Assembly (NCBI GenBank): GCA_029834535.1
Contig: JAQMWT010000473.1
Coordinates: 1 to 52,013 of the forward strand
Source: Chrysophaeum taylorii
Lineage: Eukaryota > Sar > Pelagophyceae > Pelagomonadales > Pelagomonadaceae
Direction: 5' to 3'
DNA length: 52,013 bases
Made by a program: the position numbers and the translations under genes. Below the pieces are notes generated by a model that made no database searches, was not told the origin of the DNA, and worked only from the letters and a program-made list of their open reading frames with translations. Shown here piece by piece: positions 1,416-42,374 of the stretch (positions are counted from its first letter, which is position 1; each line of letters begins with the position of its first letter).

Positions 1416-1686
1416 TTACGGCGTGGCGTTCGTCTCAGCGCGCGCATCGCGTCCTCGTCGCCGGCGTGCGCTTCTTCTAAACGTTTGTCGCCTTGCGACG
1501 TGGCGCAGACGATCAGCCTCGCGTTCGTCCTCGAGCGCGCGCATCGCGTCTCGTCGCCGGCGTGCGCTTCTTAGACGATCATCACGCCGCTCTGCAATTG
1601 CAATGCGCTTGGCCTCGCGTTGACGCTCAAGCAGCATCGCCGCATCTTCGTCGCCGGCGGCAAGAGCTTCACGACGAGCGGCCCGC
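1416..1686 (-). pseudogene. Distal part of a charged coiled-coil frame cut by element A
   Basis: On the minus strand the frame reads as a charged helix rich in Arg, Glu and Ala (QREAKRIAIAERRDDRLRS). It runs without a stop up to the left edge of element A at 1687. If the 9.7-kb element and one copy of its CCGC target duplication are removed, the frame joins in phase to the open frame at 11388-11744, which ends in similar sequence (DRFLERERGVLRDKMGRLR). The simplest reading is one coding region interrupted by the insertion. A chance in-phase junction (1 in 3) is not excluded, and no domain is recognised. Confidence 0.4.
1426..1572. repeat. Two-copy direct repeat in an Arg-rich frame
   Basis: A unit of about 51 bases occurs at 1426-1476 and again at 1521-1572, each starting GCGTTCGTC and ending CGGCGTGCGCTTCTT. 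On the minus strand it lies inside the Arg-rich open frame described at 1416-1686, so it gives a repeated peptide segment of the type RSARRRRDAMRALE. Confidence 0.6.
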
Positions 1687-2009
1687 TCTGGCAGTAACGC
1701 CCATTCCCCCCACTCGCCTGCCTGCCACCTGACTTACCCTGATTGTTGCTCTGGTATTGACCTTGCATTTATGGGGGGTGTCATCTTGACACCTTCACCT
1801 GCGCTTCCACTGGACCCAATGTACCGGGCATTTGCATTGCTTTCTTGCTGTCTTCTTGCTATTACCCTCTTTTGATTGTCCGATTTCGAGATGGCGTGAG
1901 GTATTGCGCTGAGATCGGGGTGGTTTCACCCGCGGTTCGGGTTGGGGGAAAGGGTTGTTGAGGTCCCTGGTCCGGCCAGGAGGGGCGGGTATCTGAGAAA
2001 ACCACTACA
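1687..2009 (+). repeat. Element A 5' LTR
   Basis: 323 bases, starting TCTGGCAG (the 3' copy starts TGTGGCAG, so the first dinucleotide has probably mutated from TG) and ending CCACTACA. It is followed at once by GTGGTCTCA, the expected primer-binding position. It matches 11058-11387 almost throughout. Confidence 0.9.
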
Positions 2010-2068: not shown

Positions 2069-2480
2069 CGGCGGCGAGTCGGTTCGTAACGGTCGAGTGA
2101 GTGCGAAGCCGACGCATTTGTGGGTGAAGATCCAGAGGATCACGGGTACCGCCGCGGGGTTCATTTTACGTGATTCGGATCGAACGGGGAGCGGAGTCAT
2201 TACGACTCATTGAGGCAAACATCGTAAACCTTTTTACGAGGCAAAGGCAGAGTAAGACCTAACTTAGCTCGCGCGAGGCAGACCACCTCCCTGACGGCGA
2301 GCGACAGCACCGGGAAGGACGTCCATAGTCTTCACGCGCAAGGCAAATACTTCCGTAAGTCCAGCGCACCGGTACAGCGCGCAGTCAGACGGCTGCCGGC
2401 AATTGTCGTCTGACGAAAAGGATACAACAAGTGAGTTGTGAGCGTCCGGATTAAGCCTATTATCCGGGCAAAGCGCGGTC

Positions 2481-5084
2481 ATGGCAGAGAGGCCAATGAC
2501 AGAACGACCGCAGTGGTTTCGGGACGCACAGGAGCGTCTGCAACGATTCAGTGCAGGGACTCCATTTGCGTCTATTGGGAGAACACCGTTCAGTACGCCC
2601 TTTCAACGGCCGGAAGCCGAGGAAAGTGGCATCGGAAGAGAGGCAAGATCATCTGATAGCCTCGACAGCCCCCCAAGCGTGGTCATCCTTCCGGATCCAC
2701 GCGCCGGCGAAGGGGGAGCTACGGTTGCGCCAGACGCAACTTCAAGACCGGGTGAGCCGACGTTCCCGTACGCACGACCCTACGAACGTGCGATGAATGC
2801 TACGGAGTCATCTCGAGCGGAACCCGGACCGTTTACGGCGATGCGTGGACCAGAGGAGAGTGCACCTCCTAGGCCACCATCTGCGAATACGAGAGCGACA
2901 GATTTTCGCGTGGATGTCGACCCCGAGGTTCTGCAGACCATCGGCGAACGATTCGAGATGTACCAATCGCAGATCGAGCAAGTCATACGTGAACTTGGGA
3001 GCACCCGCCGCGACGCTCAACAACAACGCTCAGAAGTGGAGCGGCAGCGGATCGACAACGATCGACTTCGACGAATGGTGGAGGAATCCATGCGGGCGCA
3101 TGCTCGAGAGGCACGGCCAACCTCTCCGGATGCTACTCGTGTTACGCCCGACGATGATGACGCTGTATCGGCACTGACCGATGATCAGCCACCGCGAAGT
3201 CGACCGGAGCCTACCCCGCACCATCATACTGATCCCGGTTCGGCGCATCGTCGTGACGAAGAAGAGATACTTCATGTCAAGAAGGGGGCTGCTGGTATGA
3301 CACGTATCACGTTTTCGAATCTCACAGGGCAAATTACTAAGGACCGTGATGAGGTGGACGCGTGGTGGATGCAATTGCGGCGTATGATGGAAGGCAAGAT
3401 TGATAAACCCTCAATAGCGATGAATGTGATTGGAGGCGAGTATCAACTCGCCCCTATGGAAGCTTATCGCAAATGGGAAGCTGAACGGCCGCAGATGTGG
3501 AAACAATACAAGGATGGGACCATCACACTGAAAGAGTTGCGCCAGCATGATGAGGACTGTCTGGGTGCTATGCAAGAGGCGACGAAGCTTCCTTGTCCAC
3601 CTCGGGCTACGGTTGAGGAGCTTGAACGTGAATGGTTCAATTTACGGCAAGGGAATTTGTCATTGAATAAGTATATCGCGCGATGGGTGCAGAAATTCGG
3701 CCAGTGGAGAGCAATGTCAGGTCGCGATACTGATCCGGCTGCGTTCCGTTCGCACTTCATTGCTGGTCTCAATTCTGAGCGCTTGCGGACGAACGTCGAA
3801 CTTGCTCAGGCCTCACCGCATATGAAAGCATATACTCTCACCCTCAACGACGTCATTCAATTGACCATCCAGATTTCCAAGATTCTGGAAGCCAACCCTA
3901 CTGCCAACATCGAAGAGGCGATTAAGAAGGAGAAGGGAAAGGAGCGCGCACCACGGATGAGGAGAGAGCAGCAGAGGCAGCAGCTGCAGCCAGTCCAACG
4001 GGTTGGTTATGTTACTGACTCGGGAGTTGGAACCTGGCTACCACAGGGGATAGATAATCATACGCGTCAAGCAATTACGACGTGCCTCAGTTGCGGCCGG
4101 CATGGTAGTTTTAACCACGACAACGGTGTGTGTCCTATGCCGGACAATCCCTCGAGGAAGAGGCGTGCTGCTCAGACGTTGACGAATGCGGGTTTTCCAG
4201 CAACGCCAGAGGGACAGGAGCAATACCGACGGACGCTTTTAGCTGCAGCAGGACAGGCTTCAGTGACTCAGCTAGCGCCGCGCGTTGTGCAACAGCCGCA
4301 GGTGGTCTACACAGCAGCACAGGTGCCAGGTGCAGGTCAACAGCAGCTGGTTGCAGGCACTCAACAGCAGGTGGTCCGAAGGCAGCCCGCAGTGCAGCGG
4401 ACCGCTCAGACCTCGGTGCGCCTGGAGGATCTGACTACGGCTCTCAACACGATGAACTTGATTCGTCAGGCACAGCAGACGGCTTCGCCGGGTAGAAGGC
4501 AACAGTCTCAGAGAGCGAACCCTAGCCAGCACAATGATGGTGTCGCCGCTCAGTGGCTTGAAGTGCTTGGCGAAGATCAGGATGACACTAAGCGAGCGGA
4601 CTACTGCACTGTGCAGTATTCTGAGCTCATGGAGGGCAACGTGTATGACGATGACGATGTTGGGGGCGATGATGATAGCTTCTCTGCAGAAGGCTATTCC
4701 CCTGGTGACCTCATGGAACCTCCTTCCTTTTTGGTCATCACTGAAGACGCATGGGTGGAGGAGCAGGAGCAAAGTACCGAAGTGACTGGAGTTGCATCTA
4801 GAGTTCTCTCGGAAGACGAAGATAATCGTGACGAATTGGGGTATACGATTGTTCGTGTGGGACAAGACACCTTGGTTGCCATGGATATAGTGCCACCGAG
4901 GGACGACTGTGCCGAGCGTTATGCCGCTCACCCTTCCATCTCTTCGGATTTCGAGAGTTTCTGCCCTCAGTCTGCGTTGAATACCACTCAGGATCCCGAC
5001 CATCGTGAAAATAAAGCCGTAAGGTACGATGGCACGAGATCCGCCTCTTATACGTATTTGCCTGTGGCTATCTCTTCGCTATAA
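2481..5084 (+). CDS. gag: Element A Gag polyprotein
   Basis: 867 codons from an ATG (MAERPMTERPQW) to TAA at 5082. The N-terminal 250 residues are polar and low-complexity with a coiled coil around residues 155-205. A retrotransposon Gag core follows at about 275-470 (DAWWMQLRRMM; EREWFNLRQGNLSLNKYI; FIAGLNSERLR). A variant zinc knuckle lies at C535-x2-C538-x7-H546-x4-C551; the usual spacing is CX2CX4HX4C. A Gln-rich stretch and an acidic C-terminal tail come next. The frame is intact, the only long undamaged frame of this element. Gag would build the particle that packages element RNA. Pol follows in the same frame after the stop. Confidence 0.85.
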   Translation: MAERPMTERPQWFRDAQERLQRFSAGTPFASIGRTPFSTPFQRPEAEESGIGREARSSDSLDSPPSVVILPDPRAGEGGATVAPDATSRPGEPTFPYARPYERAMNATESSRAEPGPFTAMRGPEESAPPRPPSANTRATDFRVDVDPEVLQTIGERFEMYQSQIEQVIRELGSTRRDAQQQRSEVERQRIDNDRLRRMVEESMRAHAREARPTSPDATRVTPDDDDAVSALTDDQPPRSRPEPTPHHHTDPGSAHRRDEEEILHVKKGAAGMTRITFSNLTGQITKDRDEVDAWWMQLRRMMEGKIDKPSIAMNVIGGEYQLAPMEAYRKWEAERPQMWKQYKDGTITLKELRQHDEDCLGAMQEATKLPCPPRATVEELEREWFNLRQGNLSLNKYIARWVQKFGQWRAMSGRDTDPAAFRSHFIAGLNSERLRTNVELAQASPHMKAYTLTLNDVIQLTIQISKILEANPTANIEEAIKKEKGKERAPRMRREQQRQQLQPVQRVGYVTDSGVGTWLPQGIDNHTRQAITTCLSCGRHGSFNHDNGVCPMPDNPSRKRRAAQTLTNAGFPATPEGQEQYRRTLLAAAGQASVTQLAPRVVQQPQVVYTAAQVPGAGQQQLVAGTQQQVVRRQPAVQRTAQTSVRLEDLTTALNTMNLIRQAQQTASPGRRQQSQRANPSQHNDGVAAQWLEVLGEDQDDTKRADYCTVQYSELMEGNVYDDDDVGGDDDSFSAEGYSPGDLMEPPSFLVITEDAWVEEQEQSTEVTGVASRVLSEDEDNRDELGYTIVRVGQDTLVAMDIVPPRDDCAERYAAHPSISSDFESFCPQSALNTTQDPDHRENKAVRYDGTRSASYTYLPVAISSL
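5082..5084 (+). promoter_or_regulatory. In-frame stop between Gag and protease (candidate readthrough stop)
   Basis: TAA in the context CTA-TAA-GGT separates gag from pol, which continues in the same frame. Exactly 11 sense codons lie between this stop and the protease Asp codon (5118-5120). Copy B3 has a TGA at the same spacing (21336-21338), while B2 has CGA there. The shared position suggests a stop suppressed at low rate to make Gag-Pol. This is inference. Confidence 0.5.
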
Positions 5085-7625
5085 GGTTCGAAATATTCCA
5101 TCATCGCTGCCGGTTTGGATGGCATGGCTGATTCCCCCTACATCGATCACCGCTTGTATCGCAAACTTGATCGTGACGGCAAAATCATCTATCGTCAGCC
5201 ACTCCCTACGATTCGTACTCTAAATGGGCCAGGAGGTTCGGGAGCTGCTTTTCGAGAATGGGTCATTCTCCGGATCTCCTTGGTGCCGACGACATCCATG
5301 CTGCTCATGTTCTTCGTTGGTCAAACGAATGGGCAGTTACTATTAGGAGCACGAGAATTACGACTCTTGGGTGCGATTTTGGATTATGCGGCAGAGAGAG
5401 CTATTTTTCGGCGTTCTGAAGTGACCATTGGAGTTCTCAAGAATCAGACTTCCGCCTCGCCACAAGACCAGCATGGAATTGTCCTTTACAATGATGCATT
5501 CGATGCGACTCCGCAGGTAGTGCAGATGTTCCCGACAGCTAAGCTTGCTGTGCAATACGGAAATATCCAAACTTGGACGCCAGTTGGTAAACCGTGGAGT
5601 TATGACAGTCTATTGCGCTCTATTCGTATCAGAGCGAGTCACCATCACGTTCCTCCCGGAGATCAGACTGCTGAAAGAGCGGAAGATCAACTTAAATGCC
5701 CTGCAGACGAGGAAGATATCATCCCTCATTTCGCGTACGTGACGAGTACTCGGTTTCTTCTTCCAAGCCAACCGTACTTCTTGGAGATGGAGTGCGATGT
5801 GCCGCAGGAAAAGGGTTACGTATTCCGTCCTCATAGGTCACTCCTCCAAGATCTCCGCCTTGTACCTGGTTCCTATTCATCGTATTGCGCTGACGAGCCC
5901 AACGAAGTTCATGTGGCTGTGGAGCACATTGGTGACGAACCCATTGGTATCGACCCCGAAGTCCCGGTGGTCGAAGGCGAGATCATGTCGCATAAAGGAT
6001 GTGTCAACATGCAGCTAGGAGCCACGGATGACGTGTGTCGTGCAACTCTTACGGCTGATGTTGACGACGATGAAGTCGAGGAGGATGTCTTGAGTGACAG
6101 ACCTCCTCCTCAGCCACCTCCAGATGAAGAAGTGAAAAAAACACCAGGAACGGAGATGGAGGCGACTGCTAAGGAGCTGCTATCTAAGCACGTCTCCTTG
6201 GTTTGGATACCCATCACCTACACCTTTGTCGTCGTCTACTTTGCTGGCGCTGGAGGATCAACGTTGGGTATCCGGCGATGCAATGAGCTATATGGCAGTT
6301 CATTTCGCATTGTCCTGGCTTTGGATGCTTGTCCTCAAGCCCGAGCCACCTTTGAGCTCAATTTTCCGAAGATTCCCTATGTTTTGCATGAGTTGGGGAA
6401 ATCTCATCGTCGTACATACGACTTGGTGTTGTCGTATTTACACTCAGATTTTTGGAAGCATTCTTATTTTCACGCCAGTCCGCCGTGTATCTATGGATCG
6501 ACTGCCAATTTGCACTACAGGGACGCACGCAAGGGCGCTACTATTACTTCTTGGGTCCTGCGTCACTTCCGCAACGCACCTTATGTGATTGGACGATGGA
6601 CGCTAGAGCAGGAACCATCAGTGATCCCATTTGTGCACCACCAATTTTATGTGCCGCGTATTGTCGATTTCTATAGTATCACACCAGAGTTCCTGTGCTC
6701 GCGCACGCGCCTACTTGCGTACAATGTTCGCTTGAACCTGCCTTTATTATCGCGTGTACCACCGAATTTAAGGGACCGTTTTGGGCCAGCGTTGGGATTT
6801 ACAGGTGGTCACCCGCTCATTATAGTGAACAGTTTCTCATCTACGCGCCCGGCTATCGGCCCTGCCTTCACGGTGACGCGCAATAAGCTCCACCTAGGAC
6901 CTCATTTCTCGAACACCCGTCCACTCACGTTGCAGATGCACCAGGAAATTATGACCGTTCCTGCTACGTGGCAATGGGGTGCGACAGTTTCAGAGACAGC
7001 AGCTATGAAGATGCTTGGCAGTATGGTGCCACCCGCGACTATGACGCGGATTGCGCTAGCAGTGCACAATTCGTTTGACCCTTCACTTCGAAATTTGGGT
7101 AAGTTGCGGAATATTGCGACGACTACGCTAGCCCAACCTGATCACCATATTCTACGGTTTTCACCTTTTGCTGTAGAGTCGCGCATTCCAACGCTCGACC
7201 CTGCCACTCGAAGTGTGTCATGGATTGCGCCCGATGAACTCTATTCTCCTGCGAGTCCTGCACCATCAGCTGCTGCCCCCACCACCCCGCCACCACCTTC
7301 AGTTACATCGCCTGGGACGGCTTCATCTTTTGCAGGGGGCACCGTCGCCACTGCTGTTATGCAGAGCAACCAAGTTGATAACCAGCCCTCCGCAACTGCT
7401 GAAGAAGAAGGCACCGCGAAAGAGCGACCAGCGTATTTCAATACGTACGACGTTCCGTGGGCGGACGCGCCTCACGACGAACATGGTCAGCCTTTACCGG
7501 TGATGCCTCCTCATTTAGCGGGTAAGGAGAGCATGCGGGTCATCCCTCCGACCGTCGCGCAGGTCGAAGAGGTGATGACTGAATTGGGTATTACAGAGTA
7601 TCCTGCTTTAGATGATGACGAGTAG
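5085..7625 (+). CDS. pol: Element A Pol part 1: protease plus C5-cytosine DNA methyltransferase
   Basis: Open from the gag stop to TAG at 7623; residue numbers count from 5115. A retropepsin-like domain comes first: active-site box LDGMADSPYI at the start and a second strand box (LLLGARELRLLGAILDY). The methyltransferase follows. Motif I is FAGAGGSTLG (about 376-385). The motif II region is VLALDACPQARATFELNFP. Motif IV is ASPPC with the catalytic Cys at residue 458 (codon 6486-6488). A candidate motif VI is LEQEPS, motif VIII is SRTRLL, and a motif X-like segment is LGSMVPPATM. A 200-residue linker leads to RT. The enzyme would methylate cytosine C5. The same order occurs in B2 and B5, so the domain belongs to the element. 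The closing TAG is absent from B2 and B5 and is probably a mutation. Confidence 0.85.
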   Translation, partial: GSKYSIIAAGLDGMADSPYIDHRLYRKLDRDGKIIYRQPLPTIRTLNGPGGSGAAFREWVILRISLVPTTSMLLMFFVGQTNGQLLLGARELRLLGAILDYAAERAIFRRSEVTIGVLKNQTSASPQDQHGIVLYNDAFDATPQVVQMFPTAKLAVQYGNIQTWTPVGKPWSYDSLLRSIRIRASHHHVPPGDQTAERAEDQLKCPADEEDIIPHFAYVTSTRFLLPSQPYFLEMECDVPQEKGYVFRPHRSLLQDLRLVPGSYSSYCADEPNEVHVAVEHIGDEPIGIDPEVPVVEGEIMSHKGCVNMQLGATDDVCRATLTADVDDDEVEEDVLSDRPPPQPPPDEEVKKTPGTEMEATAKELLSKHVSLVWIPITYTFVVVYFAGAGGSTLGIRRCNELYGSSFRIVLALDACPQARATFELNFPKIPYVLHELGKSHRRTYDLVLSYLHSDFWKHSYFHASPPCIYGSTANLHYRDARKGATITSWVLRHFRNAPYVIGRWTLEQEPSVIPFVHHQFYVPRIVDFYSITPEFLCSRTRLLAYNVRLNLPLLSRVPPNLRDRFGPALGFTGGHPLIIVNSFSSTRPAIGPAFTVTRNKLHLGPHFSNTRPLTLQMHQEIMTVPATWQWGATVSETAAMKMLGSMVPPATMTRIALAVHNSFDPSLRNLGKLRNIATTTLAQPDHHILRFSPFAVESRIPTLDPATRSVSWIAPDELYSPASPAPSAAAPTTPPPPSVTSPGTASSFAGGTVATAVMQSNQVDNQPSATAEEEGTAKERPAYFNTYDVPWADAPHDEHGQPLPVMPPHLAGKESMRVIPPTVAQVEEVMTELGITEYPALDDDE

Positions 7626-9133
7626 CTGATGATGAAGCATTTAATCTCGTGTTCGTGGGCATTTTTCGACGATGTGATGAGACCTGTTGATTCACCTGAA
7701 GTGACGCTCCGGTTCAAAGAAGAGAACCCGACTCGCGTCAAACTCTCGCCATATCGGTTGTCGAAAGAAGAGATTGAGTATTCGCGGATGCAGATTGAAG
7801 CGTGGACCCGAGACGGAGTTATTCGTCCCGCGAATTCTCCATGGGGGTTCCCTATTTTTATTTTGATGTTGCCTGAGAAAGGTGCTGAGCCTGGCACTTC
7901 CAATGCTTACAGAGCAGCTGTCGACCTACGGCGTCTCAATGCATTGCTCAAGGATGATAGCTGGCCGAGTGTGAGCATGCCTGACGCGTTGATTTTTCTC
8001 ATCGACAAGTTTTGTCGTTCCAGTTTGGATATTCGTTGGGGCTATCACAATTTACGATTGTCGCTAGATGCACAAGATGTGGTCACCTTCACTAGTCCTC
8101 TGGGAGCGTACAGCTACATGCGTCTACCTTTGGGAGTCAAACCAGCCGGAAGTTTGTTTTGCAAGCAGTTGAACACTGACTTGTCGAAATGGCTATATCG
8201 TGATGTCGTGGATCGACGATATTCTCGACGGTCACGCAGATACAACGAATCACTTGCAGTGCCTTGTGCAAGTTATTCCCCATCTCGCCTTGAAGGGGTG
8301 CAGCGCCAAGATCAAGAAGATTCATTTTATGCAAGAAGTCATTGAGTTTTTGGGTCATTTATCTACCCCGAACGGACTTCTTTCATCACCAAGGTCTTTA
8401 GAAGCCATCAGACACATGCCAATTCCTGGCACTTTGTCGGATGCTGACCCTACGAAGCAAGTGCGGTCTTTCATTGGAATGGGGTGTTTTTGCCGGCGTT
8501 ATGTAAGGAATTTTGCGAAAGTTGCAGAGCCATTAAGACAACTGACGTTGCCGGACGTAAAATTCGAGTGGACGAAAGAGTGTCAGGGAGCTTGGGATGC
8601 CATCATCGAGGCTATTGTCACTTCGAAGGGCGCCTATCATCCTGATTGCTCGTTACCTTTTTACATTCGAACTGATGCTTCCGCGCATGGGTTGGGTGCT
8701 TACCTATTTCAAAAGGTACCAGTCGTTGACGACGATGGAAGAGAAAGAATCGAAGAGAGAGCTATCGAGTACTGGAGTCGAACCGTGCCTAGGTCGATGA
8801 GGAAGTACGATCCTCGGCGCTTGGAACTCCTCGCAGTACTCTCTGCTCTCGAAAATTTCCGATTTTATATCGAAGGTCATCAGACATCATCAGACGAAGT
8901 TAGAGACGGATCATCGTAATTTAACGTTTCTGCGGGATTCGAATCATACGTCTGGACAGTTAGCACGATGGGCTATGCGGCTTGCTGCGTTCGACCGGGA
9001 ACTCGGATACAAGCCTGGAAGCTCCCCTGGCATGCGTATTCCGGATTGTCGGTCGCGCAACCCTATCGACAAATTGATCGAGAAAGATGAAGACGGGGAA
9101 CCGATCAATGAAGCTTTTTTGATTTTCCAATAA
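7626..9133 (+). pseudogene. pol: Element A reverse transcriptase and RNase H, broken
   Basis: Continues pol in the same frame after the TAG at 7623. RT motifs: NSPWGFPIFI (two extra residues relative to B copies), RAAVDLRRLN, SLDIRWGYHNLRLS, LPLGVKPAGSLFCKQ. The frame breaks near 8200, just before the catalytic box, which is read in the next phase as WIDDILDGH (x-Asp-Asp with Trp in the usual Tyr place). RT thumb and connection (FLGHLSTPNGLL, FIGMGCFCRRYVRNF) and RNase H (RTDASAHGLGAYLF; YDPRRLELLAVLSAL) follow. A 10-base duplication of CATCAGAC plus AT at 8878-8895 shifts the frame again. The last part reads to TAA at 9131, where other copies have Glu. Confidence 0.85.
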
Positions 9134-11022
9134 ATCCCCACCGATGTCCCTGGCACAGCTTGCTTCACCTTCTCTTCGGTGACGATGCCTATGCTGACGG
9201 ACAGCGGACCCACCGCAGCTATGGTAGCAGCTAGTACGCGACAGAACGTACAACCGCCTCAATTCTCGTACGAGTCTGAGCCAGTTGACTCCGTCGAACA
9301 TCTCCCTTTTGCGGACCAAGCGGAGGATGAGATCGCTCTCGATGAGATAGCGAAAGAACAAGCTGAGGATGAAACATGCAAGCGCATCAGACGAAAGCTC
9401 GACTCTGAACAGAAAGATCAAGACGAGCAGTCATCCGTACCATATGAGGTTGATGACAACGTGTTGTATAAGGTCGATGATTCAGATTCCCAACGTCTTA
9501 TTGTGGTCCCTCCGTCTATGCGAAAGCGTGTGATCGCCATGCATCACCGAGGATTGTTCGGAGCCCATGTAGGACGAGACTCCACAGCGAATCAAATCTT
9601 AGAAGGGTATTGGTGGCCAAGCGTCTCATCATCCGTTAATGAGTTCGTCCATGCCTGCATTATTTGCCAGAAGATTCGATCCACTATGCCTAGGCGCCAT
9701 GGCTTGCTCTGTCAACCGAATCGCGTCGGAGACTGCTATGTCCCAGGTATGGATTTGATTGGACCTCTGCGAGGCGCTGACCTGTACACGTACATACTCG
9801 CAATGTACGATGCAGCATCACATTTCTTGAAATTAGCTCTGATCAACACAAAACATGACTATTCGATTTTGAACGCGCTTGTGGACAAGATTTTATTTGA
9901 GGGATGTCTCCCACGGTGCATATTCACGGATAATGGAAATGAGTTCGCGAATAGGTTATTTCGCACGTTTGTTCGTCAATTCAACGTACGTTATCGTACT
10001 ACCCTTCCGTATCACCCTCAGAATAATCATACTGAGCGTGTCAATCGATTCATCAAAGCCTTCTTGCGAGCTGCGATCGATGAACAGCGTCAGCCAGGCT
10101 GGTCGAATTTCCTCCCATATGTGTCATTCATGTACAATATGATGTACATTCCGGGAACGAAGATTTTACGTTTCATGATGCGTACTGGCAAGCAGCCCCT
10201 GTTACCACCCGATTACAATCTTTTGAATGAACAGCGTGATCTACCGCAATCACGTCATCAGATTTTGGTGGACTTTAAGAACAAATTTGAATTTTATAGT
10301 CGACTCGTTACACGAGCTCACCAAAAGCACAGGATAGTCAAAAACTCAACTATGATGCCCACCAAACTGACATCCAGTTTCCCCCAGGTGATTATGTTCT
10401 GCGTTTCGTGCCTAAGACACGCCACAAGCTACGGTCCATTTGGCGCGGACCTTACATGGCTACTAGAAAGATCTCTCCCGTCGTTTATGAAATTCAAGAC
10501 GTCAACGACGATGATGCTGAATTGGTTGTAGTATCTGTACAACAGATTGTGCCTTTGAAAGTGCCAACCATCGACACTTCTCCAGCCCCTCTGCATTTAC
10601 CCTCGGACCGCGACCGGTTCAAACATGGTAAGTTCGTGATTTTCAGGGTGAAAGGACGATCCAGCGCGTGGAAGAAGCGTATCTATGTTGCCGAAGTCTA
10701 CGAAGAATATGACCACGACAATGATACAGTTGCGCTTCACTACTATACCGATTTGGGACCGCGCGATGATCCTCGCGTCTTTGATCCTACTAAGCCTCTG
10801 GCTGAGCGACGCTTAAGACCAGAATACAAAGATCCTGACGGAGGTAGCTTCACACGCCTACGACCAAACATGGAGGGCAGTGAACCCTGTGTGACTGATT
10901 TTCGCCCGGATGAAATCGATGTTCTCGTCACTAACTTCGGTCTCCACAGCAACAAATTTCCTGCTGATGTAGCTGAACGAGCTTATCGTACCATTCGTGA
11001 GCGTGACCTTCGTCACCCTTGA
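9134..11022 (+). pseudogene. pol: Element A integrase and C-terminal domain, broken by a frameshift
   Basis: The integrase has a zinc-binding HHCC unit (MHHRGLFGAHVGRD then CIICQK). The catalytic DDE triad lies in MDLIGPLRG, FTDNGNEFANR and HTERVNRFIKAF. The frame opened at 9179 ends out of phase at 10531. The true continuation is in the next phase from about 10385 (MPKTRHKLRSIWRGPY, a GPY/F-like module) to TGA at 11020. The final 150 residues form a separate domain seen in all copies: GKFVIFRVKG, then KRIYVAEVYEEYDHDNDTVA with LHYYTDLG. It resembles an SH3/Tudor-like barrel in pattern and is not a classical chromodomain. Its role is unknown; targeting of integration is a guess. Confidence 0.8.
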
Positions 11023-11057: not shown

Positions 11058-11387
11058 TGTGGCAGTAACGCCCATTTCCCCCACTTGCCTGCCTGCCACC
11101 TGACTTACCCTGATTGTTGCTCTGGTATTGACCTTGCATTTATGGGGGGGTGTCATCTTGACACCTTCACCTGCGCTTCCACTGGACCCAATGTACCGGG
11201 CATTTGTGTTGCGTTCTTGCTGTCTTCTTGCTATTACCCTCTTTTGATTGTCCGATTTCGAGATGGCGTGAGGTATTGCGCTGAGATCGGGCGTGTGGTG
11301 GTTTCACCCGCGGTTCGGGTTGGGAGAAAGGGCTGTTGAGGCCCCTGGTCCGGCCAGGAGGGGCGGGTACCTGAGAAAACCACTACA
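11058..11387 (+). repeat. Element A 3' LTR
   Basis: 330 bases, TGTGGCAG to CCACTACA, followed by the CCGC target duplication at 11388. Compared with the 5' LTR it has a 6-base insertion near 11290 and scattered substitutions. Confidence 0.9.
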
Positions 11388-31487: not shown

Positions 31488-32295
31488 CAGTGATCTGCTC
31501 TTTGGCTATCTCTTCCAAAGTCAAATTATCCGGAATCTTGTCGATGTACTCTTGGTAATCATCGGCATCACGGAAAATACTAGGCTGGGTCTGCAGACGT
31601 TGCTTCTGACGTTGTTTCGTAGCATGAGACGTGACCAATTGCATCGGATTATCGAGGTCCTCGTCCTCTTCCTCCACAAGCAACTCAGCCGTAACAAACG
31701 ACAGAATGACATGGCACCCAGGTAAAGGTACTCCTTCATCATCGACAGGGCGAGGAAGTTCTTGGCACACTAGATACGCGTGGTTCAAGGTTTCACCAAA
31801 CTCGTCCGTCTCGATGACATGATCTATAGGGTTGCGAGAGAGACAGTCAGGGATACTCATTCCCGGCGACTTCCCTGGTTTGTAACCCAATTCAGGATCA
31901 AAGTTGGCGAGCCGCATCGCCCATCGAGCCAACTGCCCAGACGAGTGCTTCGCCTTTCGTAAAAACGTCAAGTTGCGATGATCCGTTTCAAGGATCGTCT
32001 TGTGACCTTCGATATAAGAGCGGAAATGCTCAAGAGAAAGAATAACTGCCAGTAGCTCTAGCCGGCGAGGCTCATAGTTCCGCATCTCTTTCGGCACAGC
32101 TCGGCTCCAATACTCAACTACTCGTTCCTCTCGTGTCACCTTGCCGGTTTCGTCCTTGACTTCCACGAGCTGAAAAAGATACGCGCCCAGACCATCCTTG
32201 GAAGCACCCGAGCGGATCTGAAAAGGAAAATCGTAGTCAGGATGATAAACTCCGCGAGAGTCCACTAAATGATCGTGTTCCATGCCTTTTGGCAC
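31315..32295 (-). pseudogene. pol: B2 RNase H and integrase N-terminal linker
   Basis: RNase H-like sequence: FQIRSGASKDGLGAYLFQLV (Gly-Ala where B5 has Asp-Ala, so a catalytic Asp is lost), YEPRRLELLAVILSLEHF, LETDHRNLTFLRKAKHSSGQ and GMSIPDCLSRNPID. It is out of phase with RT because seven bases are missing near 32275 relative to B5. It ends in a shifted tail after RYRMAQG, where the frame changes into the integrase. Function would be removal of template RNA. Confidence 0.8.
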
Positions 32296-34691
32296 TCAGG
32301 CGCCCACTCAAACTTAACGCCTTCAAGACACAATCGCCTAAGCGGCTCCACAATCTTCGAATAATTCTTCACATATCGGCGGCAATAGTTGCTCATGCCA
32401 ATGAAAGATCGAATCTGGGTCTTCGGGGACGTATTAGGCAACGTACCAGGAATCGGCATCTGCTGCAACGCTTCTAACGTCTTGGGATTCGGCTTCAAGC
32501 CTTCCGGAGTCGAAATATGTCCCAAAAACTCGATTTCATCCTTGAGGAGGTGGAACTTCGAAGTTCGTCCACTATATCCTCGCTGTGCTAAATGGCACAA
32601 CACTTCAATCAAAACTTGTAAATGTCGGTGGAGTTCATCCGATCCCATCATAACATCGTCGACAAACGCGACCAAGTCCTTATACATCCATGTGGAAAAA
32701 TCGCCAGCAATCTGCTTACAAAAGAGAGCTACCGCAGTTTTTACTCCTAGAGGCAAGCGCAAGAAACTATGGGCTCCAAGTGGACTAACCATCGTAACGG
32801 CGTCCCGAGCGGCTGCGTCCAAATATAGGTTATGATAACCCCATCGAATATCAATGCACGTCCGCCAACGCCGCATGGCAAGAAAAGCCAAAGCATCATC
32901 TTGACGAATATTCGGCCAACTGTCATTGACCAGCTGATCATTGAGCTGGCGCAAGTCAACTGCAGCACGAAAAGCATTCGATCTCCAGGCCTCTGCTCCC
33001 TTCTTAGGCAGCATAAGTACAGGGAATCCCCACGGAGAGTTCGCTGGTCGGATAACTCCATCGCGACACCACTCAGTGATCTGCTTTCTGAGACACTCGA
33101 GCTTTGCTGGCGTCAACCTATACGGCGTCATCTTGATCGGTCGTGGGTTTGCGTCTTTAAATCGTAGAGAAACCGGAGGCGAGTCCACGGGCCTCACAAT
33201 CGGATCAAAGAAAGCCCACGCGTATTGCACGCAGTGGCTCAACATCATCCTCGCATCATCATCCAGATGCGGGTTGTCGGTAAATCCCAGTTCTCGAACA
33301 ACCTTTTCGACTTCTTCCTTCGTCGGAATTGCGACTTTCATCGCATCATTGTCCTTGACGTGCTCGGGAGTCTGCGGTAACGGTACACCGTCCGCATCGC
33401 GCGGCGCATCCTTCCATGGCACATCGAACTTTTCTTCGTATTTGAACCTCACCTCAGGGTGGCTCTTATTGATCTTTTCACCTTTGACGCGCACATTCGG
33501 CTCGCTCCTTACTTTCGGCTCCTGTTCAGGTTCAGGATCCGGCGGAACGTCCACTTTCGATTGTCGGGGGAGGGCAGCAGAAAAAGCATGGGCCGTCCCC
33601 GGCGCATCTGTTGGAAGCGGAAGCATGGGGACTTCTGGCGGCTCCCATTTAGTGGGATCCTGGAGATCATCTTTTGACACCCACTTAACGACACGAGTAC
33701 GCGTATTCAACAGCGGAATCTGTACGTGACGAAAGGTGGTGTCGGAGATTCGCAAATACTGCTCAAAGGATCGATCTGTCGGGCTCGACGCGGTCGGCAG
33801 GACTTCGCCACTTTGGCGGAAACCTCTGGTCACGGAGTTGTGCAGATCGACTGCGAAAATCGCAAGAGTGTCTGGAGGGACGACAGACGCTAATTGTTTG
33901 AACGAATCTGTCTTAGACAAGCTAGCCCAATCATGGTCCACCGGCATCGTGAGCAACTCGGCCGTCATCTCGAGAGTCAAAGGCTGAGTGTCCGAGCGAT
34001 GCGGTCCCAAGCGAAGAGGAGCTCGCGCAACGGTGTAAGCCGTATCTGTTGCTTCTCGGGACGAGCCAAGATTATTCAGCTGGAGCAGGTGGCGTTCATG
34101 AGCATAACCTAAAGCTGCAGCAATTTTTTGTTGCATGTTCACACATGTCTTCGGAGCCTCCTGCAAGTGCAGTGGGTGACTGGAAACCAACAATCGCACG
34201 CGAGAGCTCATCAGAGTGGGCGTGATATCATGTAAATTGACGACGTACACGTAAGGGTGTAAGCGCGCTATATAAGAAATGATGGACGCCTCCTGTTCAA
34301 TCAGCCACATCATGAAGCCAGCCATTATGCACAGCTTCATCGTCCAGTTAGTGGCCGTAGCACCCCTGCCAACATCTCTGGATGTCAAGTTGCAGAGTGC
34401 TGAATGAACGCAGGGTGGAGACGCTATACACATCGACGATGACCATTCCGCTTCAGGCAAATACGCCTTGATCAATCGGAGGGTCGAGCCATATCGTCCG
34501 CAGAGCGTGTGCTGAACCACAGGTATCTTTGGAAAATTCTTCTGATGAACCTTGTTGGCAGCTGTTGAAGAGTGAAGAGCAAGGACGACTCGAAACGACA
34601 TCCCGCACAACTCGTTCGCTCGTTGCAGTCCTAAAGTACTTCCTCCGGCGCCGCTAAAGAGCATCACAACCTTGCGATACGTGATCGGCAC
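32265..34691 (-). CDS. pol: B2 methyltransferase and reverse transcriptase
   Basis: 808 codons without a break. Methyltransferase: motif I LFSGAGGSTLGLQRA (residues 11-25); motif II-like FRVVLALHSS; motif IV IASPPCVHS with catalytic Cys94 (34412-34410); candidate motif VI LIEQEAS; motif VIII SSRVRLL; motif X-like LASVVPPDTLAIFAVDL. A linker of about 130 residues (VPWKDAPRDADGVPLPQTPE) precedes RT: NSPWGFPVLMLPKKGAE, TCIDIRWGYHNLYL, and FVDDVMMGSD as catalytic box. The frame is open upstream to the TAG at 34794; the 34691 Met is simply the first one. All methyltransferase key residues are kept. Whether the protein is expressed is unknown. Confidence 0.88.
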   Translation of the reverse strand: MPITYRKVVMLFSGAGGSTLGLQRANELCGMSFRVVLALHSSTAANKVHQKNFPKIPVVQHTLCGRYGSTLRLIKAYLPEAEWSSSMCIASPPCVHSALCNLTSRDVGRGATATNWTMKLCIMAGFMMWLIEQEASIISYIARLHPYVYVVNLHDITPTLMSSRVRLLVSSHPLHLQEAPKTCVNMQQKIAAALGYAHERHLLQLNNLGSSREATDTAYTVARAPLRLGPHRSDTQPLTLEMTAELLTMPVDHDWASLSKTDSFKQLASVVPPDTLAIFAVDLHNSVTRGFRQSGEVLPTASSPTDRSFEQYLRISDTTFRHVQIPLLNTRTRVVKWVSKDDLQDPTKWEPPEVPMLPLPTDAPGTAHAFSAALPRQSKVDVPPDPEPEQEPKVRSEPNVRVKGEKINKSHPEVRFKYEEKFDVPWKDAPRDADGVPLPQTPEHVKDNDAMKVAIPTKEEVEKVVRELGFTDNPHLDDDARMMLSHCVQYAWAFFDPIVRPVDSPPVSLRFKDANPRPIKMTPYRLTPAKLECLRKQITEWCRDGVIRPANSPWGFPVLMLPKKGAEAWRSNAFRAAVDLRQLNDQLVNDSWPNIRQDDALAFLAMRRWRTCIDIRWGYHNLYLDAAARDAVTMVSPLGAHSFLRLPLGVKTAVALFCKQIAGDFSTWMYKDLVAFVDDVMMGSDELHRHLQVLIEVLCHLAQRGYSGRTSKFHLLKDEIEFLGHISTPEGLKPNPKTLEALQQMPIPGTLPNTSPKTQIRSFIGMSNYCRRYVKNYSKIVEPLRRLCLEGVKFEWAPECQKAWNTII

Positions 34692-34793
34692 CCAATGGAC
34701 CTTTTCAAACCTTCGGCGAATCTCGCCTTCTGTAACTTCTCGGCATTTCTTTTCCTCCTCGTCAGTTCGTCGGTCGAAATCGTCGTTACCGAG

Positions 34794-35910: not shown

Positions 35911-38698
35911 CTACTATAAACGTAAGTGTACCAGGGTCCAAACAACCGATGGTGATGAGGTCTTGCTCGATCTTTTCCCCATCGCTCGGCGAAAGTACAG
36001 TGTGATGACATCGTATCTCCGGTTTCGCATCGCCCGGCATCTGCATCGTCACCGCTGCCATATCTGGCGTTCCACATCTCGCCTCTGAATCTATATTGGC
36101 GCTCGCCGCTTCGGCTGCTTCCTCATTCCCCAGTTTCGCTGACAACAAATTCTGACACTTCTCAATCGGAGGCACATATATTTCCTCCTTTATATCTTCT
36201 GGCAATCGTCGTTTCTCGTCCATCAAATCGGACATTCCCGTCAACTTCTCCTCCATCGGCGCCGCTGTGGTCTGCTCTGCTGCGACCAAAACTGTATCGG
36301 CTAAAACATCGGCTAAAACGGTCTCGGGGGGGCCCGTAGGAAAAGAAGACGTCGTCCCCGACGTCAACTCAAAAGGTCTAACGCAATCATCGTGAACTGC
36401 CCTGCAGGACATGCACATTGACGAATGGGGTGACACTGGAACCTGCGGCATGGGTTCGTCGGTCTCCGAATCTGAGTCTTCCCAGTAGTGCGGAGAATCC
36501 AAAGTAGCATCTGATATTGCTTCCACATACGATGTAGAAGGCCACCGAACGATCCGAGCGTTGGTGGTATTTTGCTCCTGTTGCAAACGATGGCTGCTCG
36601 TCACAGCGACATCGGCAACATAATCGGAGACTCGGGCGGGGCGCGCCGTCGGGTGAAAGACAACTCCCGACGATGGCGGCGCGTCGCATAAAGATTGGAA
36701 CGCGAAAGTTACGCTCGAATGTCCCGAACTATCCTGATATCGACCTCCGTCATATTCGTCATCGTGATGTCGATGACGTCGGCGCCGGCGCGAATTGCGA
36801 CTAGAGCTCCGGCGACGGCGGGGACTCGGGCTGGTTTGAGGAGTATTGGCCTTTCGATCAGGGCTCTGGCTTCGATGTCGGCGCGACGATCGTCTAGAAG
36901 GTGATCGTCCGTCTCGCTGTCGTGTAGAAGACGACTTGCTATCCTTGATGCCTCTGACCTCGCTCACCATGGTCGCCATTGTGGTTCCAAGATCGGTGAG
37001 GGCCCTTTGAATTTCATTAGAAGGCTCCGATCCGCGCGTGGCGTTCGCATGAGATGCATCATCACGCTTCGCCCAATCGGAACACGATATGGGTTGCTTC
37101 TTCTGCTTACGAATACGCTTCCACATCGCACAGTAATAACTATCCGGATCGCGGTTGCAAACCACGCGACTTCCGTGTTCATCTTCATCATGGGTGGTCC
37201 AGAAGAATCCGCAGTCCTTGCGCGTCCTCTTGCCCCACAAAAAAGGATCTCGTAAGATCAGCGGATCCGCATTCCCAGACGGTTTATCCGCATCTTGCTT
37301 GGCTTGTTGATCGGAGGCCATAGCTCGACCTCCCCGCCCTCGCGGCGGTTTATTCGATTTCGGATTCGGAGGGCCTTGGTCCTTCTCCTCCTCCATCAAC
37401 TTTCGCAAGTCGTTCTCGAGCCGCGTAATAAGCGCCACCATCGACTTAAAGTCAATTAACTATCAGGATGTCCGCTCCTCATAGTCCGCACACGGGCCCT
37501 CAACTCCTTGGATGTCAATCCACTGATAAGCTGGTCGAGGATATCGACATCATCCATCGTGCGGCAGGACACGGAACAAAACTCCAAGGCAAGGCTTCCG
37601 ATTGGAATCTGGTACAATACGTCTGGACGTGCCGCTCCCCAGACTTCTTCGGAACTGAAGCCTGGGTGACCTTCCGCAGCTTGTCGAGCAGCTCCTGCTG
37701 CGTGCTCGGAGGTCGGCAAGTCGATCTAAAGTAATCCAGAATTTTATCGCAATACGTCTTATTAAGACGACGGATGCGACGAACCGAGGCTCCATGCTCT
37801 TCATCGTCAGCATCCAATTTCAAGCAAAACGACGGACCGTGCGGTAGCTCATCGCAGAGCTCCTCGTATTTCTGCAAGTGTTCCTCAAAAATTGGTGCAA
37901 CGGTGTCCCGTAGATGCACGGGTAGTAAGTAACGTAGTTTCTCGACCGAATAATGGTCATCTGCTAAAGTATGCATCATCGCTGCCGAATCCAAATTGAA
38001 TTGCCGTTGATCTCGGCCGTCGATGACGAGTTTGAAGTTGTCAGGCTTCAAACTGGAGGTGGGGCGACGGGATCGGCTCAAGTTGCCCTTTTCGAAGGCG
38101 TCCGCAACCGTCTGCGATATTCCCCGCGATAATTCCCGTAAAATTTTCGTACCTTCATTCTCAGCTTCCGCCCTACCCTCAGTCTCCGTATCGACTCGGG
38201 GCGGAGGTTCATTCCCCGTTTCAGTGTTCCTTTCCGGTTCAGGCGGCCTCACGGGCGTTTCCGGTTCGGGTCGACTCACGGGTCGTTCGCGGCTACTCTC
38301 ACGACGCGTACGTTCGGCTAACAATTCATCTCGTTCACGACGAAGTCGTTCAACCTCTTCACGTAGGGTCTTCGAGGTCTCAATCTCTTGCTGCAAGGCG
38401 TCATTGAGCATATCAACTTCTCGTCGAGCCGCTCTTTCGCTTCAGCCCTTTCACGGGCAAAACGCTCAGCTAATCGTGCATTTTCGCGACGTCTCCACTC
38501 GAGGTCTTCACGAAGTCGACTTCGGGCTGCAGATCCGCGCTCAATCGTAACACGCTCGCCACGGTCCGGGGTCGTTGGACTCAACTGTGGCGTAAGGAGA
38601 ATTTTGGGGCTACCTGGCGTGCCTTCGAATCCTGACTCGCCGCTCGCGTCCGTGCCCTTGGTGGAGTCACTGGACGAGGATGGCCGTTCTCCCGCCAC
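35858..38698 (-). pseudogene. gag: B2 gag
   Basis: Spread over three phases: 38698-38318, 38411-37515 and, after shifts near 37600 and 37450, 37441-35858. The first frame starts at GTG (GERPSSSSDSTKGTDASGES), not ATG, at a site where the leader of B3 differs, so the true start is unclear. Coiled coil (EVERLRRERDELLAERTRRE), then Gag core (FKLVIDGRDQRQFNLDSAAM; LRYLLPVHLRDTVAPIF). A Cys/His cluster lies in KDCGFFWTTHDEDEHGSRVV and RDPDSYYCAMWKR. An SR-rich domain (RSPSRRSSRRHRSQSPDRK) and an acidic C-terminal region end with the conserved PGDAKPEIRCHHTVLSP. Confidence 0.78.
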
Positions 38699-38921
38699 AC
38701 AACCACAAACAACTTCCGTGCCTGGTCCTCACAACTTGAGGATCGGATGTTGCTTTATGATTAAGATATTATCGAAACACAGAAATCAGGGTGACACATG
38801 TCACGGAAAAGAAGATGATGTCATAGAGAAAACTGACATCATCAGAACGGAGTAGGGCGCCCCTGATAAGGGGGGGGCCTAGAAGAGGGGTAAGCCTTAG
38901 GAGGCGGGAGTTGCCGCCACA
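38585..38921 (-). repeat. Family B LTR and leader shared by B5 (3' end) and B2 (5' end)
   Basis: Starts (minus strand) TGTGGCGGCAACTCCCG at 38921. It directly follows the B5 polypurine tract and runs straight into B2 gag, so one LTR serves both elements. The 337 bases nearly match 43952-44289, with only a handful of differences. The inner LTR border lies inside this block and cannot be fixed. It contains an inverted TGATGTCA/TGACATCA pair near 38815-38842. Confidence 0.75.
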
Positions 38922-38961: not shown

Positions 38962-40257
38962 CTAGCGCGAGGAGCGCGGCTTCGCCTTACGAGCATCTCG
39001 TGAACGAATCTTCTGGTAAACGCGGGTGATGACCGGTTCAGGAACTCGGCCACTGCGCAAAGTAAACTCGGGGATCAACACATCAATCTCGTGCGGAGCG
39101 AAATCCGTGACACAAGGAGTTGTGTTGGAGGAAATCCTGGACTTGTCGGTGAAACTTCGACCTTCAACGTCCTTGAACTCGGGCTTGAGTTTGCGGTGCG
39201 AAAGGTGAGAGGTCGGCTTGAAATAAGCCACATCATCGTTCGGACCCAAATCGGAATAGAAATGTAGAGCAACACGATCATTTTGGTAATCGCAAGGCTC
39301 GTAAACTTCAGCAACATAAATCTTCTTGCGCCAATCAGAGCGCTTCCGGTCAGGAATCCGGAAAACAACAAACTTACCGTGGTGATAATCATCACGGAAG
39401 GTTTCTTCGGGTTTGCGGATGGCTTGATCAACGATCGGAGGTACCATCACAGGCGCGATCTGACTAACATGAACACGTCGTTCTTCGGGCGGAGAGTCGA
39501 GAGACTCAATCCGATAGGTGACCGGGGAAAGGCGTTCCTTGATAATAAACGGACCTCGCCATTCCGGTCGAAGTTTGTTCTGAAGGAAAGGAATGTAGAG
39601 CAAAACGTGCGATCCGTCCTTGTATTCAACATCAACATGATCGGCATTGTAGGCCAATCGTTGTTTCTTCAAAGCTTTATCACGAGCCTCGCGGACGATC
39701 TTCGTAAAATACTTCAGTCGCTCACGAGTTTCGGCGACTGCATCAGATCGAGTATTCAGCAATAATCGCGTATCAAAATCCATAAGCGTGTAGTCAGTCG
39801 GCAGCATCGGCTGACGGTTCAGGCGCAGCATAAAGGGAGAAATCTGCGTGCCTGGAATAAACTTGCGGTTATAACAAAACGCAACATAATGAGCAAAGTC
39901 AGGCCAATCCGTGATGTTCCGGCCCTGAAGGCAAGCACGGAAGAAGGCCTTGATAAATCGGTTTACACGCTCAGCCGGGTTCGACTGGGCATGATAAGGA
40001 ATCGTAGTTTGGTATCGTGTGTTAAAGAGATGGCAAAACTCGCGCATCAACTTGTTCACGAACTCTTTACCGTTGTCGGTACGAATCATCTGGGGCAAAT
40101 AGCCCCTGAGAAGAATGTTAATGACAAAAGACTCGAGGACAGACTCAGCAGTCTTATCGTTCAAAACACCCAGAATCAAGAAATGCGAGAACGGATCAAA
40201 AAATACTAGAAGATACGTCTCGGGACCAGCGCTGGGCAAGGGTCCAAATAAATCCAT
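38962..40257 (-). pseudogene. pol: B5 integrase core and C-terminal domain
   Basis: Starts inside the integrase at MDLFGPLPSA (first catalytic Asp). Second box RTDNGKEFVNKL, third NPAERVNRFIKAFF. It is followed by the GPY/F-like KLRPEWRGPFIIKERLSP and the full C-terminal domain: GKFVVFRIPDRKRSDWRKK, YVAEVYEPCDYQNDRVALHF, SDLGPNDDVAYFKPTSHL, RKLKPEFKDVEGRSF, TPCVTDFAPHEIDVLIPEF. This is the best intact copy of that domain. It ends in TAG shortly before the polypurine tract. The N-terminal zinc region is in the preceding frame. Confidence 0.85.
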
Positions 40258-42374
40258 GCAAAGAACAGACCATCACCATCGTAGACGGGCTGCTGCAAGA
40301 GCCCAGCTCGTTTCGGCTCAGGCGTACGAGCTTTCCGGCAAACTAAACATTCAGCAATGAAGACTCCAACTTCGTTCGACATGTGAGGCCACCAAAATCG
40401 TTCTTGGATAGCCTGGACGGTACTGTGACGTCCCATATGACCACCGTTAACTGGAGCGTCATGGTAGAGTCGAATAATGCGCTTGCGCAACGTAGCAGGT
40501 GCAACAATCCTCGGGTGCAAATCAGCAGAAGTGCGGTAAAGAACGTCTTTAACGATTTCGAATCGTTCGTTCGCTCGGGAACGTCGCGGCGTCTGACCTT
40601 GGGCCATTCGGTAGCGAATATCATCGCAAGTAGCATCAGATTCTTGCTCACGTGCGATCTCAGCGAGCGTCATATTATCGGGTATCATATCGATATAATC
40701 TTTGTAAGCGGCTGCGTTCTTGAAGATCTGCGGCTCATCGCGCGCAAGGTTCTTCCGACGTTGTCTCGTAGCGTGAGACGTAGCCAATTTCATCGGATCT
40801 TTTTCAGGATCTTCTTCCTCGTCTTCCGGCAGTTCGGTCGTAACAAACGACATTATGAAGTGGCAGCCGGAGGCGGGAATTCCTCGGTCATCAACAGGTC
40901 GGGGAAGCTCTTGGAACACCAAATAAGCGTGGTTCAAAGGTTCTCCAAACTCGTCAGTCTCGATGACGTGATCTATCGGATTGCGGGAGAGACAGTCAGG
41001 GATACTCATTCCCGGTGACTTTCCCGGCTTGTAACCAAGTTCAGGGTCAAAATTGGCGAGGCGCATCGCCCAACGAGCAAGCTGCCCAGACGAGTGCGTC
41101 GCCTTACGTAAAAACGTCAAATTTCGGTGATCGGTCTCCAAAACAGTCCGGTTCCCTTCGATGTAGGCTCGAAAGTGCTCTAGAGAAAGTATAACTGCAA
41201 GCAGCTCTAGCCGACGGGGCTCGTAATTGCGCATCTCCTTCGGCACAGCTCGGCTCCAATATTCAATCACTCGTTCTTCTCGAGTCACTCTTCCGGCATC
41301 GTCCTTGACTTCGACAATCTGGAAGAGATACGCTCCAAGTCCATCCTTGGAAGCATCGGATCGGATCTGAAAAGGCAGATCATAATCGGGGTGGTAGACT
41401 CCTCTGGAATCAACCAAAGCTTCAATAATCGTATCCCAAGCTTTCTGACACTCGGGCGTCCACTCGAACTTCACACCTTCGAGGCATAATCGTCTCAACG
41501 GTTCCACAATCTTCGAGTAGCCCTTCACATATCGCCGGCAGTAATTACTCATGCCGACGAAAGAGCGTATCTGGGTCTTCGGGGAAGTATTCGGCAAAGT
41601 ACCTGGAATCGGCATCTTCGGCAGTGCTTCCAGCGTCTTCGGATTCGGCTTCAAGCCTTCTGGGGTAGAAATGTGTCCCAGAAATTCTATATCATCCTTG
41701 AGAAGGTGGAACTTCGCGGTTCTACCGCTGTACCCTCTCTGTGCCAAATGACACATCACTTCGATCAAAACTTGTAAATGTCGATGAAGATCGTCGGATC
41801 CCATCATAATATCGTCAACTAACGCAACCAAGTCTCGATACATCCATTTCGAAAGGTCGCTCGCCATTTGCTTGCAGAAAAGAGCTCCGGCCGTCTTCAC
41901 AACTAGAGGTAATCGCAAGAAACTATGAGCGCCAAGTGGGCTAACCATCGTGACAGCGTCTTGCGCTGCCGGATCCAGACGAAGGTTGTGGTATCCCAAT
42001 CTAATATCAATGCATGTCCGCCATCGTCGCATAGCGAGAAAAGCTAGAGCATCATCTTGTCGAATGTTCGGCCAGCTGACATTGACCAATTGATTGTTGA
42101 GCTCACGTAAGTCAACTGCAGCACGGAACGCGTTTGACGTTCCAATCTCAGCTCCTTTCTTCGGAAGCATCAACACAGGAAAGCCCCAAGGTGAGTTGGC
42201 CGGACGAATGACTCCATCCCGGCACCGCTCGCTGATCTGCTTGCGGAGACAATCGAGCTTCGCAGGCGTCAATCGGTAGGGCGCCATCTTATCGGTCGCG
42301 GATTCGCGTCTTTGAATCGTAGAGACACAGGAGGCGAGTCCACAGGTCTCATAATCGGGTCGAAAAAGGCCCAA
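40206..42374 (-). pseudogene. pol: B5 reverse transcriptase, RNase H and integrase zinc region
   Basis: 722 codons: RT from LTPAKLDCLRKQ, NSPWGFPVLMLPKKGAEIG, TCIDIRLGYHNLRL, catalytic LVDDIMMGSDD (Leu in the Tyr place). RNase H has IRSDASKDGLGAYLFQ, YEPRRLELLAVILSLEHF and LETDHRNLTFL. A linker (RYRMAQGQTPRRSRANERF) and the HHCC unit (LYHDAPVNGGHMGRHS; CLVCRKARTPEP) end at YDGDG, where one missing base shifts the frame away from MDLFGPL. Apart from that deletion this is the best preserved RT-RNase H of family B here. Confidence 0.85.

Follow-up and report, generated by a model that had tools for sequence, protein, structure and literature searches.

In the 52,013 nucleotides analysed here (contig JAQMWT010000473.1, positions 1 to 52,013; below, the window), a gypsy-type retrotransposon that we call element A carries within its pol frame, upstream of reverse transcriptase (RT), a segment that is almost certainly a C5-cytosine methyltransferase (MTase) domain. 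Elements B and C of the same window carry homologous domains. The domain is very divergent in sequence, but from its conserved residues, its fold and the selection acting on it we infer that it is probably catalytic, and it may serve to methylate the element's own newly made complementary DNA (cDNA). An MTase built into a gypsy-like pol had been proposed from the nucleotide sequence (the original prediction), and is confirmed: the domain lies in the pol frame of a gypsy-type element and is under purifying selection.

The 846 codons of the frame at 5085-7625 (+) are open, and the check that had been proposed for them, a search with the Pfam DNA_methylase model (PF00145), gave a significant match (E 1.9e-8, 34.5 bits, cut-off 22). 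The excised domain (6180-7154; P0001) reaches 38.5 bits against the same cut-off, in two stretches of which the better covers motifs IX-X, and matches a PHROG DNA methyltransferase family at E 1.8e-11; the NCBIfam dcm model gave 22.7 bits on the motif I-II region, far under its cut-off of 100.65. By the customary numbering and residues of C5-MTase motifs, all those listed in the original prediction (I, II-like, IV, VIII and X-like) are present in the order given there, and an equivalent of motif VI, absent from that list, lies between IV and VIII (Table 1). Structure prediction, another of the checks proposed, also bore the claim out, a Rossmann-type C5-MTase fold being found in the AlphaFold model and in fold searches. 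It is fold comparison alone that links the domain to solved C5-MTases (with 13-16% identity in the rows for M.HhaI and M.HaeIII), because sequence searches of the PDB gave no such link: phmmer with the whole frame found nothing, and a profile made from an alignment of 11 MTase domains (A1, comprising among others those of elements A, B and C and that of a homologue, P0002) found RT chains, through P0002, without any methyltransferase.

Within A1, the catalytic Cys of motif IV (as PPC) is present in ten of the 11 domains, element C having Arg instead; the motif VI triplet is EQE throughout, with its Glu invariant, and both Arg residues of motif VIII are likewise found in all 11. Might the resemblance nevertheless be due to chance, or to faulty assembly? 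Pfam scores are weak in single copies (20-38 bits), and although seven A1 members match PF00145 at E <= 0.1, the other four do not; but this explanation is already contradicted by the present results and we consider it extremely improbable. The chance of an open frame of 325 codons at the local base composition is about 1e-6.

Purifying selection on the MTase is similar in strength to that on RT. Ratios of nonsynonymous to synonymous differences (dN/dS, by Nei-Gojobori counts) between element A and a copy elsewhere in the genome, L061, are 0.06 for the MTase (0.092/1.52) and 0.064 for RT (0.078/1.22), low values that are only approximate, since synonymous sites are almost saturated once dS approaches or exceeds 1.5. 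The whole excised domain gives 0.071, the protease-like region with its linker 0.21 (0.29/1.37), the linker after the MTase 0.41 (0.19/0.47) and gag 0.22 (0.47/2.13). Between element B and copies L063, L064 and L065 the MTase ratio is 0.06-0.07, and the linker ratio for B and C is 0.26. Four closer pairs of copies have higher MTase ratios (0.20-0.26), perhaps because young copies hold unselected changes; over all nine gypsy-MTase pairs the range is 0.06-0.26.

The copy of element A in the window is decayed, with in-frame stops at 5082 and 7623 and RT split over two frames. In L061, whose MTase is 82% identical to that of element A, a single open frame, of 1737 codons in the stretch analysed, runs from gag through the protease-like region, the MTase and RT into the first part of RNase H, so the MTase belongs to the polyprotein and was not inserted into one dead copy. 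In the genome as searched (70.8 Mb, 697 contigs) there are more than 200 element-borne gypsy MTase domains, a lower bound, in several subfamilies: at least 132 match rows of the A type (71-100% identity; best 123 of 909 candidates scored, about a dozen rows being pieces of copies already listed) and at least 126 of the B type (77-100% identity; best 126 of 1013 candidates scored). A search with the domain of P0002 gave at least 125 rows (best 125 of 763 candidates scored) and revealed a further subfamily (L067-L070), in one copy of which, as judged by eye, the MTase is followed by the beginning of RT and, past an internal loss, by integrase. In the 30 best-scoring A-type loci, PPC and MVPP are each retained in 29, and LEQEP, SRxRLL and GAGG in 27 each; the domain is free of stops in 20, and 14 combine all motifs with no stop, counts that are biased upward because these 30 of the 132 rows were picked by score.

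What, then, might such an enzyme do? Lying next to RT in Gag-Pol, it may well be carried inside the particle, where it would encounter genomic RNA, hybrid and cDNA. We propose that it would be translated within Gag-Pol, would be released, or stay tethered beside RT, in the virus-like particle, and, with S-adenosylmethionine (SAM) as methyl donor, would methylate C5 of cytosines in the element's new cDNA; Cys103 would act as the nucleophile, while Glu143 would hold the base (P0001 numbering). The new copy would thus arrive in the genome already marked, and the mark might make the incoming DNA look like self, or protect it against nucleases or deaminases; a DNMT5-like enzyme of the host (see below) could then maintain marks at CG. 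To this whole chain we assign a probability of roughly 0.5; methylation of cDNA seems the likeliest action of the enzyme, with RNA as the main rival substrate.

Several observations weigh against this proposal. Motif VI is EQE in these MTases instead of ENV, its usual form; the AlphaFold model is of modest confidence (pLDDT 60.6); seven of the first ten Foldseek rows are DNMT2-type enzymes (DNMT2 or EhMeth, rows of the latter being taken by us as DNMT2-type); and between elements B and C RT is more constrained (0.062/1.62, ratio 0.038) than the MTase (0.141/1.575, 0.09). CpG decay would be expected if copies were heavily methylated at CG and 5-methylcytosine decayed to T, but the observed/expected CpG ratio stands at 1.10 for element A and at 1.2 for elements B and C, and A-type copies show no clear decay: in the 191 of 435 pairs with >93% identity (29 loci, stricter column filter), C>T differences per site were highest by a hair at CG (0.0247, as against 0.0243 at CT, 0.0228 at CC and 0.0162 at CA), while the full set of 435 pairs (30 loci, with rearranged flanks left in) had a modest excess at CG (0.0476, as against 0.0404 at CC, 0.0359 at CT and 0.0241 at CA). 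Heavy mutagenic CG methylation of the copies is therefore disfavoured; brief, other-context or well-repaired methylation is compatible with these figures. The further idea of the original prediction, that the element could methylate its own DNA copies or alter host silencing, stands as a conjecture, CpG decay being the one footprint looked for, and the interpretation given there is supported in part.

Since DNMT2 methylates tRNA, the Foldseek rows are also what might be seen if the domain acted, like DNMT2, on RNA (either genomic RNA inside the particle or the tRNA that serves as primer), which is moreover what pol proteins meet first, and the lack of clear CpG decay on DNA copies would suit this equally; we judge it unlikely, though to be taken seriously. 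It is distinctly unlikely that the element's chromosomal copies are marked by its own enzyme for silencing by the host, so limiting damage and keeping the host alive. Restraint is among the ideas offered by de Mendoza et al. (2018; PMC5890265), and copy number is high, with a DNMT5-type enzyme that could maintain the marks; but the copies are without clear CpG decay and without CpG depletion, and self-restraint, we would reason, is usually weakly selected on a single element. Finally, the fold might have been kept without catalysis, as a scaffold binding SAM or nucleic acid for the benefit of the particle or of RT, as the great divergence of the sequence and the loss of Cys from element C, in spite of its near-identical long terminal repeats (LTRs), might lead one to think. 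The retention of PPC in 29 of the 30 A-type loci and ten of the 11 A1 domains, together with the invariance in A1 of EQE and of both Arg residues of motif VIII, makes this very doubtful.

Where might the gypsy MTase have come from? A search of the genome with PF00145 gave at least 57 matches (best 123 of 474 candidates scored), 30 of which were treated as loci. One of these is a DNMT2-like host gene (L001, C634; human DNMT2 at E 3.9e-39), and another a DNMT5-like host gene (L002, C621) matching over 640 residues, at E 3e-143, the 2348-residue chain of PDB 7r76 (labelled Rad8), which we take to be Cryptococcus DNMT5; when its domain was searched for in the genome, its own place alone was found. 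A search for DNMT1-RFD in the host gave no match, a negative that carries no weight, since control genomes gave none either. In BLASTP comparisons, the element MTase resembled the DNMT2-like protein at motif level only (E 0.01) and showed nothing meaningful against the DNMT5-like one (best E 17), so that neither gene is, on sequence, an evident source. Among 5.8 billion proteins, none of 2422 candidates (of about 180-568 residues only) matched P0001 at E <= 0.01; of 1342 candidates for the L061 region one matched, namely P0002, which comes from another record, is 34% identical and has the same MTase-RT layout. An alignment A2 gave 11 matches among 7996 candidates scored, ten being RT domains and P0002 alone having an MTase, as called with the profile from A1, which itself contains P0002. 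Scans of viral and genome contigs for relatives of the gypsy MTase, and of viral contigs for relatives of the copia-context MTase described next, found none; as all these searches go by short exact words or patterns, a donor among bacteria or viruses is conceivable. The suggestion that this is a further, independent case thus fits, independence being probable insofar as the one protein relative is itself an MTase-RT protein and the host enzymes show similarity at motif level at most.

All 28 remaining loci (L003-L030) proved by tblastn to represent one different MTase. In the one locus checked for its context (L062, G000:C96:63500-69499), this lies upstream of an integrase and a Ty1/copia RT in a single frame (RVT_2 133 bits; DNA_methylase 32.2 bits, above cut-off; rve 17.4 bits, under cut-off). 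Its identity as a C5-MTase follows from that DNA_methylase score, from a PHROG match and from its motifs, LPCQ and ENV; dN/dS is 0.11-0.21 in six pairs. A profile of it gave weak rows in the PDB, the three at E 0.02-0.04 being all cytosine-specific methyltransferases, and the pLDDT of its structure model is 35.4. Comparison of the gypsy and copia profiles found no similarity, a weak negative in view of low-diversity alignments and the inclusion of the RT part of P0002 in A1; on sequence, the two MTases may be called different, rather than proven unrelated. DNMT5 is a maintenance-type methyltransferase, and the only host gene for a DNA-cytosine MTase met among the best 123 of the 474 candidates, apart from the tRNA-type DNMT2-like gene, is DNMT5-like. 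From this it is conceivable, if improbable, that de novo methylation is supplied by the retrotransposon enzymes, captured on two independent occasions, one in Ty3/gypsy and one in Ty1/copia elements, with the host enzyme merely maintaining it; the methylome would then be seeded by the parasites of the genome and maintained by the host.

The features of the three elements are collected in Table 1. LTR pairs with target-site duplications flank elements A and C, and the order RT, RNase H, integrase is seen in the frame at 40206-42413 (-) and the frames at 7626-10528 (+), so the elements are gypsy-type in that order, though not in every gypsy feature. Gag of element A is assigned because of its position and of the uninterrupted frame of L061. 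RVT_1 matched element A in two pieces, at 16.3 and 17.1 bits (cut-off 29.6), and its integrase gave sub-cut-off matches to rve (28.9; cut-off 32.6) and Integrase_p58_C (22.5; cut-off 27). The MTase of element A, placed by the original prediction between protease and RT, is indeed upstream of RT, RNase H and integrase, but what precedes it is only protease-like, by residues and position: no Pfam protease matched this region in A, B or L061, and where retropepsins have D-T/S-G-A all three read DGMAD, perhaps an altered protease. DGMAD is common to the protease-like regions at 5085-5200 (+), 34794-36122 (-) and in L061. In element C (38581-44294, -), a mere 66 bases separate the 5' LTR from the MTase segment, and the element accordingly lacks gag and the protease-like region; with near-identical LTRs and an intact target-site duplication in spite of this, and of the loss of the MTase Cys, it may be a non-autonomous derivative that was mobilized in trans.

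Table 1. Features of elements A, B and C in the window (LTR, long terminal repeat; TSD, target-site duplication)
Feature	Position	Strand	Remarks
5' LTR, element A	1687..2009	+	10 mismatches in 323 aligned positions against 3' LTR
3' LTR, element A	11058..11387	+	paired with 5' LTR
TSD CCGC, element A	left 1683..1686, right 11388-11391		
gag frame, element A	2442..5084	+	open; Retrotrans_gag 16.1 bits, under cut-off 24.1
Protease-like region and linker, element A	5085..6179	+	GLDGMADSPYI, LLLGARELRLLG; position and residues only
C5-cytosine MTase domain, element A	6180..7079	+	PF00145, AlphaFold model, fold searches, alignment A1
Motif I, FAGAGG	6240-6257	+	
Motif II-like, ALDA	6318-6329	+	
Motif IV, SPPC	6477-6488	+	catalytic Cys
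Motif VI equivalent, LEQE	6603-6614	+	
Motif VIII, SRTRLL	6699-6716	+	
Motif X-like, MVPP	7023-7034	+	
RT and RNase H, element A	7626..8916	+	two overlapping frames; RT_RNaseH_2 76.4, RT_RNaseH 53.3 bits
Integrase (H2C2, rve) and C-terminal region, element A	9134..11022	+	Integrase_H2C2 58.1 bits, above cut-off
MTase domain, element B	33789..34733	-	motif IV intact; PF00145 22.6 bits (cut-off 22); A1
Linker and RT, element B	32265..33788	-	RVT_1 46.6 bits; frame shared with element B MTase
MTase domain, element C	42943..43887	-	PPR for PPC; PF00145 20.3 bits, just under cut-off 22; A1
RT, RNase H and integrase zinc finger, element C	40206..42413	-	RVT_1 33.7, RT_RNaseH 90.3, Integrase_H2C2 63.8 bits, all above cut-offs
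LTR, element C, 3' in element sense	38586..38921	-	3 mismatches in 336 positions; TSD TCAAC 38581-38585
LTR, element C, 5' in element sense	43953..44289	-	TSD TCAAC 44290-44294

Elsewhere in the window, a Ty1/copia RT region (26608-30202, -; RVT_2 139 bits), the start of whose frame looks, on inspection by eye, like the 3' end of element B, is apparently a nested insertion or chimera. Three copies of a dispersed repeat, each about 0.9 kb long and itself containing short repeats, lie at 12295-13265, 21933-22911 and 50668-51598, the first copy being inverted with respect to the others, and two overlapping open frames at 47265-48717 (-), of 268 and 261 amino acids, had no Pfam match at E <= 0.1. 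Outside the window, an organelle contig, probably mitochondrial (L071, G000:C696), has a permuted 5S rRNA directly after the small-subunit rRNA (Rfam mtPerm-5S 44.5 bits, gathering 39), a form noted in brown-algal mitochondria, which makes a stramenopile host likely.

How does the gypsy MTase compare with known systems? With M.HhaI, M.HaeIII and other PF00145 enzymes it shares fold, motif order, PPC in motif IV and RxR in motif VIII, but it is fused to pol, and Gln-Glu replaces Asn-Val in motif VI; the DNMT5-like and DNMT2-like proteins are C5-MTases of the same genome. DNMT3 enzymes have PCN in motif IV, where the element MTase has PPC. Like the retrotransposon-encoded DNA methyltransferases (DNMTs) already described, it lies in a retroelement frame and is under purifying selection. 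Retrotransposon cytosine MTases were reported from dinoflagellates and charophytes by de Mendoza et al. (2018; PMC5890265), rightly cited in the original prediction, with the benefit to the element left open. That paper described KnitGypsy-Dnmt3 of Klebsormidium nitens, in which a DNMT is already part of the Pol polyprotein of an LTR Gypsy element; the arrangement in itself is therefore no novelty. The two have in common the DNMT domain in LTR Gypsy Pol, conserved key residues and purifying selection (Ka/Ks < 0.2 there, 0.06-0.26 in our nine pairs); but KnitGypsy-Dnmt3 is Dnmt3-related by tree and has fewer copies than the elements of Symbiodinium (PMC5890265), whereas here there are more than 200 copies, and PPC, EQE and a host that is probably a stramenopile set ours apart from it as described. 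SymbioDIRS-Dnmt3 and SymbioLINE-Dnmt are likewise retroelement-encoded DNMTs in very many copies, but belong to DIRS and LINE elements, the DIRS ones being of Dnmt3 class, while ours is a predicted MTase in an LTR gypsy element; for the SymbioDIRS domains, de novo methylation of CG has been demonstrated in yeast and methylation of cDNA has been proposed (PMC5890265). Copia elements of Symbiodinium are described there as lacking a DNMT, and a 2025 paper, citing the 2018 work, names LTR Copia among DNMT3-bearing elements. Among the entries listed in the literature searched (PMC5890265, PMC12344493, PMC6338049, PMC9998398 and PMC11528492, in their accessible parts, and mostly without subscription papers and preprints), none reports a DNMT in gypsy or copia elements of stramenopiles. 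The principle is therefore known, and what seems new is a very divergent enzyme, in a different lineage, and, apparently, two element classes in one genome: on the one hand a divergent domain, about as constrained as RT and found in several subfamilies that include long open copies, and on the other a second, different MTase in copia context and a DNMT5-like gene, a combination that makes the question of cDNA, RNA or the seeding of host methylation testable in one organism.
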